Under the pieces are notes generated by a model. That model ran no database searches, was not told the DNA's origin, and worked only from the letters and a program-made list of their open reading frames with translations. Source: Stephanodiscus triporus (lineage: Eukaryota; Bacillariophyta; Thalassiosirophyceae; Thalassiosirales; Thalassiosiraceae). Taken from it: a stretch of DNA of 11,926 nucleotides. A program made the translations under genes and the position numbers. The stretch lies in NCBI GenBank assembly GCA_036939755.1, contig JALLAZ010000815.1:1-11926 (forward strand), written 5' to 3'. Below are positions 3,073-11,926 of the stretch, piece by piece (within the stretch, counting starts at the first letter, position 1; every line of letters begins with the position of its first letter).

Positions 3073-3197
3073 CCCCATAGTGCCATGGGGACTCCCCATA
3101 GCGCTATGGGCAGGGATTCATGAAAATTACAAATCGGGGAGTCCCCATAACGCTACGGGGATCCCCATAGCGCTACGGGGGCCATTGCGCTTTGGGG
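3073..3197. repeat. Cluster of five 18-bp palindromic repeats
   Basis: Five related units sit at 3073-3090, 3094-3111, 3143-3160, 3163-3180 and 3180-3197. The consensus is CCCCATAGCGCTATGGGG, its own reverse complement; unit 2 has a perfect 16-bp palindrome at 3095-3110. On a larger scale, 3071-3099 is an imperfect inverted copy of 3133-3162: GGGGACTCCCC at 3087-3097 pairs with GGGGAGTCCCC at 3136-3146. The whole could fold into a stem with a loop near 3102-3132. It lies between the divergent starts of the oxygenase-like and ALKBH7 genes. It may be a miniature inverted-repeat element or an array of protein-binding sites. Confidence 0.85.
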
Positions 3198-3245: not shown

Positions 3246-4298
3246 ATGTTGGCAATCCGACGCGGCGTCGTATGCTACGCCAAGCTTGGACATCGCCCTC
3301 TTTCAAATACAGCTACAGCTACAACTACAGCTACAACTACAGCTACAGCTACAGCTGATGCTGCTTTGGTCGTCGCTTGTTCCGAAAGATACGTCAATAT
3401 CCGAAATGCGCCGGAAGGATTTGATGCGGCCTCCGCAGGTGTGTATGCGGGTGTGGAAAAACATACTCTAAGATATTCTTAGCACATTCATTTAGTTTAT
3501 GCCACCTTTTTCTTACATCGTTGATACTCACGTAGATGAGTTTATGCAATCTCAGTTGTGTATCCTGGGTTTATTACTGAAGCGGAAGGGAGATCTCTTG
3601 TCGAAGAAGCTGGTCGCCGGCTGAAACGCCGCCGTTTTGAAAACGGACATTGGGATTCGGTCATCACCGGTTACAGAGAAATAGAGTTCTCGACGCCTGA
3701 TGACCAATATCCGCAACAGGGTTTAGATATTGAGAATGGAGCAACTGTGCCGCCGTATGTGAAAGCGATTCAAAGGACTCGAAGTCACCTTGAAAATCAC
3801 CATTTCAACAGTCGTGGAGACTGTGCAGATGCTTTTTCCAACAATATACGATGGCTTCCGTGTCATGCAATCGATCTGTCAGCGAATGGTGAATTGAAAC
3901 CTCACGTGGATTCCGTGAAATTCTCAGGGAAAGTCGTGGCTGGAATTAGTCTTCTTTCTGACGCGATAATGCGATTGAGACCGTCCGCAAAGGAATGGGA
4001 GAGCGAGGAAAAGGACACCAATCACAGCGCAGTACTCGGTGCCTCCGATAGATACGTGGATTTATATCTTCCAAAGTTATCACTCTACGTTCTATCCGGG
4101 ATGAGCAGATACTCTTTTACCCACGAACTACTTCCTTCCAACACAACGTTTGAATATATGGAAAAGAAATGCATGCTGTGTCAGCATGAAGATAAAGGCG
4201 CAGAAGTTGTTGAAAAAAATGGATGCGAAAATAAAAGTATTGATGTGTTAAGAGGGCGGCGCCTCAGCATCATCTTCCGAGATGCAAAGAAAGTTTGA
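3246..4298 (+). CDS. ALKBH7: ALKBH7-type 2-oxoglutarate/Fe(II) dioxygenase, two exons
   Basis: Exons 3246-3438 and 3556-4298, joined across a 117-bp intron, give 311 residues. The junction creates DAASAVVYPGFITEAE, which closely resembles my recollection of the start of the human ALKBH7 core, supporting the splice. Family marks follow: RRLKRRRFENGHWD, then KPHVDSVKFSGK with the metal ligands His181 and Asp183, AGISLLSDAIMRL, the distal ligand His254 in YSFTHELL, and 2-oxoglutarate-binding Arg in GRRLSIIFR (about 298-306). Human ALKBH7 is a mitochondrial AlkB relative linked to programmed necrosis and lipid metabolism, with mitochondrial tRNA demethylation also reported. The N-terminus MLAIRRGVVCYAKLGHRPLS is basic and free of acidic residues, as a mitochondrial presequence should be. 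The Thr/Ala repeat (residues 22-37) and a Cys-containing insert at about 265-295 are not in the human protein, so this one is longer (311 versus about 221). An in-frame ATG at 3204 would add 14 residues. The stop lies 4 bp from the XRN stop. Confidence 0.9.
3309..3356 (+). repeat. Coding hexanucleotide repeat (ACAGCT/ACAACT)x8
   Basis: Eight hexamers, exactly 48 bp, in phase with the ALKBH7 reading frame: ACAGCT, ACAGCT, ACAACT, ACAGCT, ACAACT, then three ACAGCT. They encode 16 alternating Thr/Ala residues just after the predicted mitochondrial presequence. Gain or loss of units would keep the frame, so length variation between alleles is likely. Confidence 0.95.
3439..3555 (+). other. Intron in the ALKBH7 gene
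   Basis: Donor GTGTGT after GCAG and acceptor ATCTCAG, 117 bp, phase 1 (G/TT, Val65). A stop in the exon 2 frame at 3537-3539 shows that the frame does not extend upstream without splicing, and the exon 1 frame ends at 3480-3482. Only the spliced product joins the presequence to the AlkB core. Confidence 0.85.
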
Positions 4299-4302
4299 CC
4301 CT

Positions 4303-7286
4303 TCATGATTTTCTGAAGGCAGTTTTGTATGGAATGTCGTGAACAGATCCCTGAATTCTACTGCTATTTCCTTTCCCTTCAGAGTCCTCGGAAAAGTCGG
4401 TTATTTTTGCATCTCTTAGACGTTCGACTTGAGTCTTTGCGAGGATCTTGGTTGCCCTTATCCTTGAGTTTCTCCGTAGTCGGGGAACTCTGTCTGAAAA
4501 TGGCTCTGGTGGATCGAACGGATCCTCCAACGGAAGGCTCGAGCGTGAAATTACTGTCCAGAACTTGCTACCTACGTGAATACGCCTGCCCTTCGAACTG
4601 CTTTGACCGGACACAGTAGGTTTCTTTGTTCTTCCAATCTTTTTCAAAGCCTCATTGCACTTTCTAGAAAAACTCTCGATATCGAATGCTCTGGTCTCTG
4701 GATGAAAACAACTGTTATAAAGATCTTCGAAACTTTCTTTCCTGGAAGGATCAACAAGCCAGCTGTAGGGCTCAGGCACGATGTGCCACGCCTGTGGTGG
4801 TACTGCTGCGAGACAAGATAATCCATCGCTGATTGGTGCAACGGTAGTCCGGCCAATCAAATCGGCGCAATCGATTTTGAGCTTTCCCTGTTTGTCAATA
4901 CTCTCTAGATATTCAACCAGCTACAACATAATCGTGGGTACACATTCTAATCATTATTTGGCAAAAATTAGCAGTCACTAGATTCACATACCTCGAATGG
5001 GGTGGGAGAGGCACGGCTGCCGTAGTCGTAGCCGTAGTTACTACAGCAGCCGTGTAGATAAGTTTCAAGATTCCACAGCAAACCGCCAAGATAAGACGCG
5101 GCATCAGATTTAGCAAGTCCTTGCTGCTTTTACATTTCAACGGCCGGAGGTCAGCAAGTTTGAATGAGATGTAAATATCAATGAAAATAGCGTTATCTTA
5201 CCTTCTCACAAAACGAGGCGCTGTCGGTTGTTCCCGAGTCGCCTTCGTCTTCCCCTTCAAATAGTGTATCCACATTCTCCCGTCCAAATATTTCTTCGAG
5301 TGCTAGACGTGAAAGTCTCTCTTTCGTGTTTTTCATGGAACTTTTGGGTAAGATTGTAACAAAATGAGAACTCGAGAGAGATATGAGAACGATCCCAAAG
5401 TCACCACAAACTACGCTTACCTTTGTTGTCTATGAGGAACCTCGAAAAGATAAGCTCGACCTTCCCCGGTCGTGATTGGCTTTTCACTCCTTATCATACG
5501 CGATATAACACCACGACCATCACTTCCTCCTAAGAAGGTAGTGAATATTTCTTCACTTAAAGATCCAGCATAAGTTGTCGTATTTGAGGAAGCAACATAA
5601 TCCTCAGGGAATCGGCCTAGTGTCAACCTAACAATTTCAACTCCATCATCAGCAAATACTTCACTCATTACACGTGATGTGTTTTGTTTTAACTTTGAAT
5701 TCATCTCCCACAACTCTTGTTGAAAAAAGGAGTCTATGGGGCTGACAGTATTGAATCTGATTGGGCCAGGGAGGATCTTTGCTTCAACGAGATTGTTTAG
5801 ATTTCCCAACTGTGATTGTGGCGATGATGAATAATCCGATGATGGTACGATTTCGGCATTCGAGGCCAGCGCACGAAAGAATTTCATGGCGAATTGGACA
5901 TTCATCTGTAGTTCGCCGTTGTTGTCCAGATTGATCAAAAACGAATCCTCATCGTCATTTCCGTTTCGCCTGTCCATCCATGACTTCACTAGATCCAAAT
6001 ATACTGGGAAAAAAGAATCAAACCCTGCCCTGCATCCCTTCACTTTTGGAAGATAGTCGTTTCCATTCAGTATGATGAGTAATGTTGTATCGATCCTGAT
6101 TTGATTGATTTGATTCAGAGTTAACGATCGCTTTCTCCTGATATTGGATTTTCTAATTTTTTTTGAGCCATATGAATATGTTGCAGTACCCTCTATCATG
6201 TTGGCCATGATCCTAGTAGTTTCCCAAATCGATGCAACCAAGCTCTCGCCTTTCTCCCCCGGTAAAATAACATGAATATTGTGCGTTATTGACGGCGGGA
6301 CGACTAATCCCATAAGGACGAGATCGGAATCACCTCCAAGGATGGCTACAGTTTCGTTTGGTTTCACATTCATGCGGTGGTATTGAGATGAAGATGACTG
6401 ATGACCAAAGGTTATCCAATCTAGCAACTTTACCTCCCCTTCTCCGTGCACAGAACTTGGGCTCATGTACACTTTAACTCTAGGATATCGGGAAACGTGT
6501 TGCCATGACCAATATAGCAGCGCATTTGTGACTTTATCCATGAAAGCAGTTCCAGGCGTGATGTTGAGTGTCACCCGCTCTCTATCATGCTTTTGTTTAA
6601 GCGGGTCGTTTCTATTCTTTTTAACGGTATTGTAAAATCCAAAATCATTATCTCTCCACCCTTTTAGCCTCAAAACTTCTATTTGCCGTTCTTGTAACTC
6701 TGCTTTTTTATAGATGGAATACCTGCGCTTTCTCTGTCTGTCAAGCTTGGCTGCCCCTGGTGATCCATCTATCAGACAATTGAGAGGCCGAAAAAAAATG
6801 AAGTCAGCGGAAAGTTGGAAAGGCTGGTAAGCCCGAAATGTTGCATTTTGGATACGACTTACCAATCGCAATAACGAGACTTTTCCTCGGTACGGCAGTT
6901 GTTGTCGTGATACGGTTGATCTCTTTGATGAAAAGGAGTAGAGAATACTCAATAATATCATCATCGAGATGTTGCTTCCCAGTAGTCGAGAATTTCGCTC
7001 TGCGGTTGTATGCCCTTCGTAAAGTCGTATGGAGAAATTGATTGGCGTCGATGAGCACGTGATCGAACGTCTCGGGTCGAAATTCGCTACCACCGGCACC
7101 GCGGCGATCTGGGTTGATGGTTGTCACGGCAGATGGAAACGCGGATTCGAACCAGGATCGGAACCCCTTGATCCCAAACAGATTCGTTCTGCGGGTATTG
7201 TGGGAAGTGCACGGCGAAAAGGCATCGGCGCGAATGATGAGTAATGTGGCGAGAATGGCGTGCGATGCCGCCCATGAGATCGTCAT
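4303..7286 (-). CDS. XRN-family 5'-3' exoribonuclease with plastid-type presequence, five exons
   Basis: Exons on the minus strand are 7286-6863, 6768-5421, 5340-5202, 5123-4992 and 4920-4303. Introns are 94, 80, 78 and 71 bp, all GT-AG, with phases that agree; total 886 residues. XRN enzymes degrade RNA with a 5'-monophosphate. Motifs in order: GIKGFRSWF (38-46), the counterpart of the usual N-terminal MGVPxFFRW; FDHVLIDANQFLH (74-86); SLVIAIDGSPGAAKLDRQRKRR (136-157, across intron 1); NITPGTAFM (210-218); GEGEVKLLDW (250-259); LGGDSDLVLMGLV (285-297); ILNGNDYLPK (374-383); and YLGGLLWNLETYLHGCCS in exon 4, matching the middle domain. The acidic residues of the active site are present. Unusually, the protein begins MTISWAASHAILATLLIIRA then DAFSP: a signal-peptide-like hydrophobic stretch ending in an A-x-A-F site (Phe23), the diatom plastid import signal. 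No Met lies next to GIKGF, and a stop precedes the ATG at 7286, so the extension appears real. It converges with ALKBH7 and diverges from the SET gene. Confidence 0.92.
4921..4991 (-). other. XRN intron 4
   Basis: Donor GTATGTG after TTCGAG and acceptor TATGTTGTAG; 71 bp, phase 0. It joins SPTPFE to LVEYLESIDKQGK and then to ISDGLSCLAAVPPQAW, which continues the XRN middle domain. Confidence 0.85.
5124..5201 (-). other. XRN intron 3
   Basis: Donor GTAAGA after GAGAAG and acceptor AAAAGCAG; 78 bp, phase 0. An alternative AG three bases upstream would add one Gln. Splicing puts exon 4 in the frame QGLAKSDAASYLGGLLW, which matches the XRN family; the other frames do not. Confidence 0.85.
5341..5420 (-). 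other. XRN intron 2
   Basis: Donor GTAAGC and acceptor CCCAAAAG; 80 bp, phase 2. Exon 3 then reads SSMKNTKERLSRLALEEIFG, an acidic/basic linker before the middle domain. Confidence 0.8.
6769..6862 (-). other. XRN intron 1
   Basis: Donor GTAAGT directly after GCGATTG and acceptor CTGATAG; 94 bp. Removal makes AIDGSPGAAK, the conserved acidic motif of XRN enzymes, which unspliced reads into a different and non-conserved sequence. Confidence 0.9.
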
Positions 7287-7692
7287 ATGAAAGACTCAAA
7301 TCTCGTGTGGCGCGGCGATGACCGAGTTCTCGACTCCTGCAGCCGGTGTGGGGGTGGTGGCGTACAACATATGAGTACGTCGAGCAGACAGATAGATATT
7401 GGAGTGTGGCGGTTGTTTGCCTCAAGTAGATTCCTTTTAAGGAAGGGCGGTTGTTGCGCCGACAGCAAGTAGATTCCTAATTTCAAATATGATTCCTATG
7501 TAGATTCCTGTGCGCACACCCCCGTCTCGTCCCTGCGTCGCGTCCCTCTTCCCCTTTTCTCCTCCCTCTCATCTCCCCCACAACGGGCACGCGCCAAACC
7601 TCCGTCCCGTTGCTGCCCCCGCTTTTCCTCTGTGAACGGCAAATAAGCGGCGGCCGCGTCCGTACTTGTTCGCCGCTGTCATAATAAATTCG
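7287..7692. promoter_or_regulatory. Divergent promoter region between XRN and the SET gene
   Basis: 406 bp separate the two start codons, which point away from each other, so both promoters must lie here. The right part is C/T-rich (about 7515-7630), as expected of the SET gene leader. The centre holds a short local duplication (7408-7509). I see no coding sequence and no firm TATA box. Confidence 0.55.
7408..7509. repeat. Local duplication with TAGATTCCT units
   Basis: Two imperfect copies at 7408-7435 and 7446-7478 both begin GGCGGTTGTT and end CAAGTAGATTCCT. Two further partial units follow: ATGATTCCT at 7489-7497 and ATGTAGATTCCT at 7498-7509. It lies in the shared promoter region and could be a duplicated regulatory site or simple replication slippage. 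Confidence 0.75.
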
Positions 7693-8936
7693 ATGAAACT
7701 ACCTCCCCTCGTGGCGCTCTCGTTCTTGCCGTGGGGATCGTCGAGCGCATCGTCATCGCCGCCCTCGTCGTCATTCGCACGGAGTCGACGCGCCGCCGCC
7801 CTCCTCCCCGCCCCGTCGCGTCTCATCGGCCGCCATCGCGACGTCGACGCCGGGAGGAGGGGCCTTCGTCGTCCGTCGTCCGTCGTCGTCTGCGTCGGCG
7901 GCGGCGGCATCGTCGGCATCGACGACGAAGGGGGTGACGACGATGACGTCCGCCGGCGGACGCTCGACGCCGCCCTCGTCAAGATGAGATCGATCGACGA
8001 GGTCGCGTTCGGTTCGAGGTTCAACGGGCGTCGGATGAGGTTGGTGGAGGTCAGGGAGTCGTCGATACCCGGGGCGGGACTCGGCCTGTTCGCGAGGTCG
8101 AGCATACGGTCCGGCACGATAATCACGTTCTATCCCGTCCACTCCATAGGGATCGTGGACGCGGTCGACGGCGGCGTCACGCGGGTGTGCATGGACGCCG
8201 GCACGGGTCGGACGTACGAACGCCCCGACGACGACGACGACGACGACGCGTATCTGCTGCACGTGCTCGGCGGCCGACCCCTGATGGACGCCGACGTGTC
8301 GAGGGATCTCGGCGGACGATCGATCTTCGTCGACGTCGACGTCTCGAACGTCGACCCTCGCCGTATCGGCGACGGCGGCGCGATCGCGTCGTGCGGATTC
8401 GACGGGCACGGGGCGAACGACGGGGCGCGACCGTTCTCGTGAACGACGAGGGCGGCGCGTTGGCGTACTACCGCGCGTTGCGCGCGGCGAGGAACTGCGT
8501 CCACGTGCCGTTCGGGCCGTCGCCCCTGCTCGCGTTGGTGTCGACCAGGAAGATAAGGAGGGGCGACGAGCTGCTCACGACGTACGGCTGCTCGTGTGAG
8601 TAGTGGAATAATGATTTTCGCGTGCTCTCGTGTGTACGATTCATGCGCGAGACGTGTTGTGCGTGCGACGTTTTTTTGGTCGGGCCAGAACCCCCCCCCC
8701 CCCCCCCTCCCAACGGCCCCTTTCTTTTTCTATTCCACCATCGACGAACGAAAAAATCAGACTGGCTCGATTCCCTGATGAGGGAAACGGGCGAATCGGA
8801 GGAGACGGACATGACGGAATCCATCCTCGTGGAGGCGAGGGAGGTCGCGATGGACATCCTGAAGGGGATGAGGAGCGCGGCGGCCACGCACGCGAGTGAG
8901 GCGGAGGAACTCCGGTCCATCTTCGATGCTCGTTGA
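7693..8936 (+). CDS. SET-domain protein with N-terminal signal, two exons, one apparent frameshift
   Basis: Exon 1 runs from the ATG at 7693 to 8595 and exon 2 from 8761 to 8936. SET domains usually methylate lysine side chains. The N-terminus (MKLPPLVALSFLPWGSSSAS) is hydrophobic, then Ser/Arg-rich with SSSFARSRR, which could be a secretory or plastid presequence. SET marks are IPGAGLGLFARSSIRSGT (about 125-142), GHGANDGA (238-245), RNCVHVPFGPSPLLALVSTR and IRRGDELLTTYGCSYW. The last motif is completed only by splicing, which brings in YWLDSLMRE and a helical acidic tail ending at the TGA 8934-8936. The frame changes at 8425-8427: the frame-1 stop at 8440-8442 is avoided, and the SET domain continues in the next frame as TVLVNDEGGALAYY. 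One missing base or two extra (a GC dinucleotide in GCGCG) would explain it. A run of seven Asp lies at about 179-185. The gene is probably functional with a sequence error, but a recent mutation is possible. The methylation target cannot be told. Confidence 0.75.
8596..8760 (+). other. Intron in the SET gene
   Basis: Donor GTGAGT and acceptor AAAAATCAG; 165 bp, phase 1 (T/AC, Tyr). It contains a run of 17 C at 8691-8707. Splicing completes the conserved SET end motif TTYGCSYW; unspliced, the frame stops at once with Cys-Glu-stop. Confidence 0.88.
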
Positions 8937-11305: not shown

Positions 11306-11926
11306 TTGTCAAACACCTTTTATATATATGACATTGATGTGAGATGAATATGGATTGGGTGTACAGCCTCAATCACCGCGTTTCACTATCAGCTATTGCC
11401 TGGGAGTTGCCCGATTTGTAGCAAAATTCCAAAAGCTTGGTTGGCATAAGCGGCAGTAGTGTGGTGAGGACACATGCATATGCACATCCACAGCATATAA
11501 CAGTTGTCAAACACATTCTATACATTTAATTGATATGAGATGAATATGGATTGGGTGTACAGCCTCAATCACTGCATTTCACCATGAGTTAGCCCAGATT
11601 TTAAATGTCAAAATTCCAAAAGCTTGGTCGGCATAAGCGGCAGTAGTGCGATGGGGACACATCCATATGCCCATCCACAGCATATAAAGGTTGTCAAACA
11701 CATTATATATATATGACATTGATGTGAGATGAATATGGGTTAGGTGTACAGCCTCAATTACTGCATTTCACCACCACTTATTGCCTGGGAGTTTCCCACC
11801 AGATTTCTAGCAAAATTCCAAAAGCTTGGTTGGCATGAGTGGCAGTAGTGTGGTGAGGACACATCCATATGCCCATTCACAGCATATAAAGGTTGTCAAA
11901 CACTTTATATATATATGACATTGATG
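11306..11926 (-). repeat. Tandem satellite B, 177-208-bp units, runs off the right edge
   Basis: Units begin at TTGTCAAACAC at 11306, 11514, 11691 and 11893, giving lengths of 208, 177 and 202 and a truncated fourth. Shared blocks: GAGATGAATATGG, GGTGTACAGCCTCAAT, AAAATTCCAAAAGCTTGGT, GGCAGTAGTG, CACAGCATATAA. Copy 2 has internal deletions. Read on the minus strand, the end block gives TATGCTGTGGATGGGCATAT, which matches satellite A. The array continues beyond this window. Confidence 0.92.

Follow-up and report, generated by a model that had tools for sequence, protein, structure and literature searches.

The window, the whole stretch of 11,926 nucleotides analysed here, is one contig (C805) of a 21.65 Mb, 1324-contig assembly from the diatom Stephanodiscus triporus, and its minus strand carries a gene for a protein of the XRN 5'-to-3' exoribonuclease family, with 5 exons, 887 codons and introns that are all GT...AG. 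The predicted precursor opens with MTISWAASHAILATLLIIRADA-FSPCTSHNTRRTNLF-GIKGFRSWF, in which Phe is residue 23 and the match to the XRN_N domain runs from Gly38. The gene is laid out as follows:

7296..7298, minus strand: in-frame TGA 5' of the start codon
6863..7286, minus strand: exon 1, with the leader and the beginning of XRN_N, followed by a GTAAGT donor
7221..7286, minus strand: signal-peptide-like stretch, residues 1-22, a hydrophobic segment whose cleavage position is inferred from the motif
7176..7220, minus strand: transit-peptide-like stretch, residues 23-37, starting with Phe and ending TNLF
7173..7175, minus strand: codon of Gly38, the predicted first mature residue, from the end signature and as structural counterpart of FEN1/EXO1 residue 2
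6299..7175, minus strand: XRN_N domain, residues 38-298, interrupted by intron 1
5421..6768, minus strand: exon 2, with the bulk of XRN_N and the catalytic acidic residues
5202..5340, minus strand: exon 3
4992..5126, minus strand: exon 4, for which the AG at 5123, 3 bases inward, would serve equally well
4303..4920, minus strand: exon 5, closed by the stop codon TGA (4305-4303)

An earlier note on this DNA had described exon 1 and a plastid-type leader within it, an observation that is confirmed and is now firmer than first stated. The exon boundaries it gave are exact on the minus strand, with the GTAAGT donor next to them, and the stop said to lie just upstream of the ATG is the TGA at 7298-7296, four codons away. 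Where it read a hydrophobic start ending in RADAFSP with Phe at +1 we find ADA-FSP, the Phe being residue 23, and the basic, Ser/Thr-rich stretch reported after this motif is FSPCTSHNTRRTNLF, with Ser or Thr at 5 of its 15 positions, 2 Arg, no Asp or Glu and a net charge of +2. GIKGFRSWF does begin at residue 38 with no Met nearby: the Pfam match starts at this Gly, and the first Met after Met1 is residue 218. Since that Met lies within the nuclease domain, no internal start yields the enzyme, and together with the upstream TGA it makes the leader obligatory in the present gene model. On the same two grounds a wrong start codon is ruled out within this model, and a leader-free enzyme from the present transcript is excluded on the available sequence, barring an undetected upstream exon.

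Several other frames lie in the window. A 2OG-Fe(II) oxygenase-like frame at 3540-4298 on the plus strand (PF13532, 28.5 bits, slightly below the cut-off) is convergent with the XRN gene, and as the two stop codons are separated by 4 bases the transcripts probably overlap. A divergent neighbour at 7693-8603 on the plus strand opens with the hydrophobic MKLPPLVALSFLPWG and shows SET-like motifs by eye; three pieces of it gave no Pfam match, and its product may be another leader-bearing protein. The plus-strand frame at 472-1641 is of the Gfo/Idh/MocA oxidoreductase type (PF02894, E 2.5e-9; PF01408, E 1.3e-7), with a short first exon from about 327 by eye.

A Pfam search of the window protein (threshold E 0.001) returned XRN_N (PF03159) as its sole match, with an E-value of 8.5e-35 and 120.7 bits against a cut-off of 22.9. 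All seven acidic metal ligands, on what we take to be their XRN1 numbering, are kept (D80, D142, E251, E253, D288, D290 and D379), as is the 5'-monophosphate pocket (K149, Q153, R156 and R157, which we presume to match the Lys, Gln, Arg and Arg of XRN1), with H86 as the stacking His. The structural alignment to human XRN1 covers chain residues 3-641. With the catalytic and 5'-phosphate-pocket residues kept and an XRN core fold predicted, the enzyme looks catalytically competent. It resembles XRN1 and XRN2/Rat1 in its XRN_N domain, metal ligands, 5'-phosphate pocket and predicted core fold, but differs from them in its plastid-type leader and its divergent second half; Pfam did not recognise XRN_M (PF17846) in the window protein and matched it weakly in 9 of 26 relatives. 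The handling of substrate may therefore differ from that of ordinary XRNs. Known XRNs are, to our knowledge, nuclear or cytosolic. Those of yeast are so described (PMC5862402, in excerpt).

Placement in the FEN/EXO1 family instead of among the XRNs was ruled out by the profile and fold scores. FEN1 and EXO1, which are 5' nucleases, have the superfamily fold in common with the diatom protein, and their N-terminal Gly aligns with its own. The first non-XRN row in Foldseek, Plastid-localized exonuclease 1 (PDB 9l56, E 5.2e-3), is a plastid nuclease too, but it is short (312 residues) and a poor match at 10% identity; we found no paper with this phrase in the open-licence literature. It is conceivable that the diatom protein is stromal and has DNA as its main substrate, serving plastid replication or repair as a 5' nuclease of the FEN/EXO1 kind, although we consider this improbable.

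Three protein searches (the best 120 of 204 matches, all 97, and the best 120 of 219) yielded at least 168 distinct relatives, not counting P0138, which looks like a canonical XRN. Most rows among the matches listed are nameless, and those bearing organism names are all diatoms, from Thalassiosira, Detonula, Skeletonema, Cyclotella, Conticribra, Fragilaria, Cylindrotheca, Amphora, Seminavis, Epithemia, Nitzschia, Pseudo-nitzschia and Fistulifera; the closest named relatives of the window protein belong to Detonula and Thalassiosira. Among these same listed and mostly nameless matches (best 120 of 204, 97, best 120 of 219), no non-diatom relative is named, nor are Phaeodactylum tricornutum and Thalassiosira pseudonana. 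The group has a sharp edge, its last member in the 97-match search standing at 1.2e-44 and P0138, which follows, at 1.0e-6. In a quick tree, a very long branch with full support splits 115 family rows from the two canonical XRNs of the window's genome. It says little on the group's origin because the outgroup consists of these two rows, rough partial gene models with very long branches in which the alignment misplaces the last catalytic Asp. Public records label three rows (P0096, P0159 and P0161, from Fistulifera and Seminavis) as '5'-3' exoribonuclease 1' or '2', labels that mask the separate group.

The two other XRN loci in the assembly, C406 and C847, both match XRN_N and XRN_M. C406 starts MGVPKFFRWLSERYP and has no leader, its MGVPKFFRW directly following a short in-frame run that is itself preceded by a stop. 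At C847 the start is ambiguous: if translation began at an in-frame Met further upstream, the protein would gain a short hydrophobic stretch, MRVSDVHANLGLLIISS, that is without the xAF motif. Only C406 therefore serves as a clean leader-free control. Light-harvesting proteins of the same genome carry an AAFAP-type leader in 17 of the 23 inspected (27 matches in all).

The earlier note had raised the question of whether orthologues lack the extension, and the family argues that they do not. Among 169 rows, window included, 36 are without a recognisable XRN start and 22 have fewer than 25 residues ahead of it, most of these starting at or near MGIKGF, so that 58 are uninformative or nearly so for the presence of a leader. 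A hydrophobic segment is found in 107 of the 111 rows with a testable leader (again with the window) and no strong one in 4, and a small residue plus Phe follows the hydrophobic core within the tested span in 95 of the 107, many of these leaders being read from unspliced ORFs of metagenome contigs, with starts that are guesses. Rows from MMETSP transcripts (P0002-P0005, P0042 and P0123) bear the leader too. Of the 12 leaders in which the small residue and Phe are missing from the tested span, inspection by eye places an AF motif beyond that span in five (P0063, P0067, P0078, P0094 and P0136) and Leu in place of Phe in two (P0030 and P0133). Two Thalassiosirales rows, P0022 and P0028, fit the leader pattern poorly.

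An unsupervised motif sampler, applied to the 84 non-redundant leaders among 91 in a set of 138 rows, returned [VIA][SD][AS]-F-[VL]-[P], with the Phe in 72 of 84. The motif scored 7.30 units per sequence (30 restarts), against 4.94-5.26 in eight shuffled sets (10 restarts each). The published rule for diatom plastid proteins is Phe, or else Trp, Tyr or Leu, at +1 in an ASAFAP-like context (PMC4329603, in excerpt). In the 95 leaders the distance from Phe to the XRN core has a median of 29 residues (range 14-80), and the stretch between them has a mean net charge of +2.9 (positive in 88, zero in 4, negative in 3), with 26% Ser+Thr and 2.7% Asp+Glu; the corresponding values for measured Thalassiosira pseudonana transit peptides are +2.6, 32% and 0.9% (PMC3774753, in excerpt). 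Because the layout recurs throughout the family it lies beyond chance, and a chance signal-like stretch in a single gene is ruled out by this conservation.

A second signature, missed in the earlier note, adjoins the XRN domain, where the window protein has TNLF directly ahead of GIKGF. Among 100 non-redundant leaders, 88 have Leu at -2, 98 have Leu, Ile or Met there, and 82 have Ser or Thr at -4; at -3, -4 and -6, Leu, Ile or Met occurs in 0, 3 and 1. Ser/Thr at -4 and Leu/Ile/Met at -2 are found jointly in 80 of the 100, compared with 4.1 on average and 11 at most in 2000 shuffles of the leaders' last 20 residues. The 63 mature N-termini measured by Huesgen et al. 2013 are described as having very strong Leu at -2 and hydroxylated residues from -3 to -6, with Leu/Ile scarce at -1 and from -3 to -6, small or amidated residues favoured at -1 and, for +1, a preference for Met, Ala or Ser (PMC3774753, in excerpt). 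In the main, the end of the XRN leader resembles this diatom stromal processing site. It departs from it at -1, which is often Met, Phe or Tyr in the XRN family, and at +1, which is Gly in all 106 rows, the search pattern itself having demanded Gly.

Plastid targeting of the XRN, as judged from its sequence, is well supported, and a stromal location is preferred to a periplastid one because of the large hydrophobic +1 residue and the stromal-processing-like end of the leader. The earlier proposal of a plastid or periplastid XRN therefore stands in its plastid half, the whole two-part leader being conserved, and loses ground in its periplastid half. Periplastid proteins are usually without an aromatic residue at +1, and the window protein has Phe23 at its predicted +1. 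An XRN retained in the periplastid compartment for RNA decay at that place would use a signal peptide to enter the same route, but Phe is at +1 in most leaders and the end of the leader looks stromal. We know of no nucleomorph in diatoms and therefore of no RNA source in this space, and regard a periplastid enzyme as very unlikely. For passage across the inner three membranes, a large hydrophobic +1 residue is described as indispensable (PMC3774753, in excerpt).

Equally slight, in our view, is the prospect that another transcript form, or an inner MGIKGF start in some species, makes a nuclear or cytosolic enzyme of which the leader form is a minor product. Met does stand at -1 in 28 of 106 relatives, and a few codons ahead of Gly38 the window shows by eye a pyrimidine-rich tract closed by CAG, at which an upstream exon could in principle join. 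However, the Met at -1 is not conserved, the window has none between residues 1 and 218, the genome has two other XRN genes and the leader pattern is strongly constrained. That the segment opening the leader is a plain secretory signal, sending the nuclease to the ER or vacuole or out of the cell, is scarcely credible, as such a signal requires neither the Phe, nor the basic hydroxylated stretch, nor the end signature that are conserved together with it.

The gene thus encodes a eukaryote-type XRN with a conserved, predicted address for the chloroplast interior, where XRNs are not known to work. We think it likely that the diatom XRN with the two-part leader acts as a stromal 5'-to-3' exoribonuclease whose mature form begins at Gly38; its import, the exact cut, exonuclease activity on RNA and a plastid substrate are what we infer. 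In this model, the precursor would be made in the cytosol and enter the ER by its signal peptide, and the Phe-first transit peptide would carry it into the plastid stroma. There the stromal processing peptidase would cut directly ahead of the invariant Gly of GIKGF, and the mature XRN would degrade or trim 5'-monophosphorylated plastid RNA from its 5' end. In the open-licence literature we came across no publication about a diatom plastid XRN.

Such a cut would leave the invariant Gly first, as Met removal would in ordinary XRNs, where it would expose the equivalent residue. In P0001, Gly32, the counterpart of Gly38 in the window protein, is the first residue aligned in the structural alignment, against residue 2 of FEN1 and EXO1. 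In FEN1 the processed N-terminus has Gly2, which is assigned to the active site and for which a part in activating the attacking water has been proposed (PMC5490271, in excerpt), and the catalytic pocket of EXO1 is described as including Gly2 (PMC7993637, in excerpt). Should XRN depend on a free Gly in the way that FEN1 does, its precursor would stay inactive up to the stromal cut.

In plant chloroplasts, 5'-to-3' decay is credited to RNase J. The role proposed here for the diatom XRN would be that of RNase J in the chloroplasts of plants and green algae, but the metallo-beta-lactamase/beta-CASP fold of RNase J is unrelated to that of XRN, and its core was not found in the window protein, XRN_N being the sole domain there. 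In an exon-wise profile search of the window's genome, the RNase J, RMMBL and RNase E/G models had no match, PNPase was found strongly and only one beta-CASP gene was found. RMMBL should occur in CPSF73 as well. That it was missed, and that a single beta-CASP gene was found, points either to gaps in the assembly or to genes that the search overlooks, and the absence of RNase J is correspondingly weak. Both RNase J and RNase E are described in plant chloroplasts (PMC7154860, in excerpt). A precedent for a eukaryote-specific organellar 5'-to-3' exoribonuclease is Pet127 of fungal mitochondria, which, unlike the diatom XRN, is a mitochondrial PD-(D/E)XK nuclease (PMC9181182, in excerpt).

We hypothesise that XRN replaced RNase J in diatom plastids. 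A fuller version, in which a eukaryotic XRN took over from the bacterial-type RNase J and the import step also switches the enzyme on, with the stromal processing peptidase rather than methionine aminopeptidase freeing the catalytic Gly and the nuclease silent before the plastid, is a tentative idea that we hold to be rather unlikely as a whole. If diatoms do have a conserved stromal XRN, plastid RNA decay in this ecologically large lineage would rely on a eukaryotic enzyme, 5'-end processing in red-lineage algal plastids would become testable through one gene, and there would be a simple means of holding a nuclease inactive until import.

PAP, a chloroplast retrograde signal, is described as inhibiting XRNs and stacking on His41 of human XRN1 (PMC11834196, in excerpt). 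The counterpart of this His is invariant in the 74-row alignment, so control of the diatom XRN by PAP is possible. Given that PAP is a chloroplast stress signal inhibiting plant XRNs, a stromal XRN would raise the question of whether PAP acts on it within the organelle itself.

Tandem repeats also occur in the window, namely GAC x 30 (2583-2672), a 20-base unit x 2.2 (3135-3180) and TACAGC x 8 (3308-3356). From about 11450 to 11926, segments of a few hundred bases appear by eye to be repeated, with common stretches such as ggttgtcaaacac and ccaaaagcttggt.
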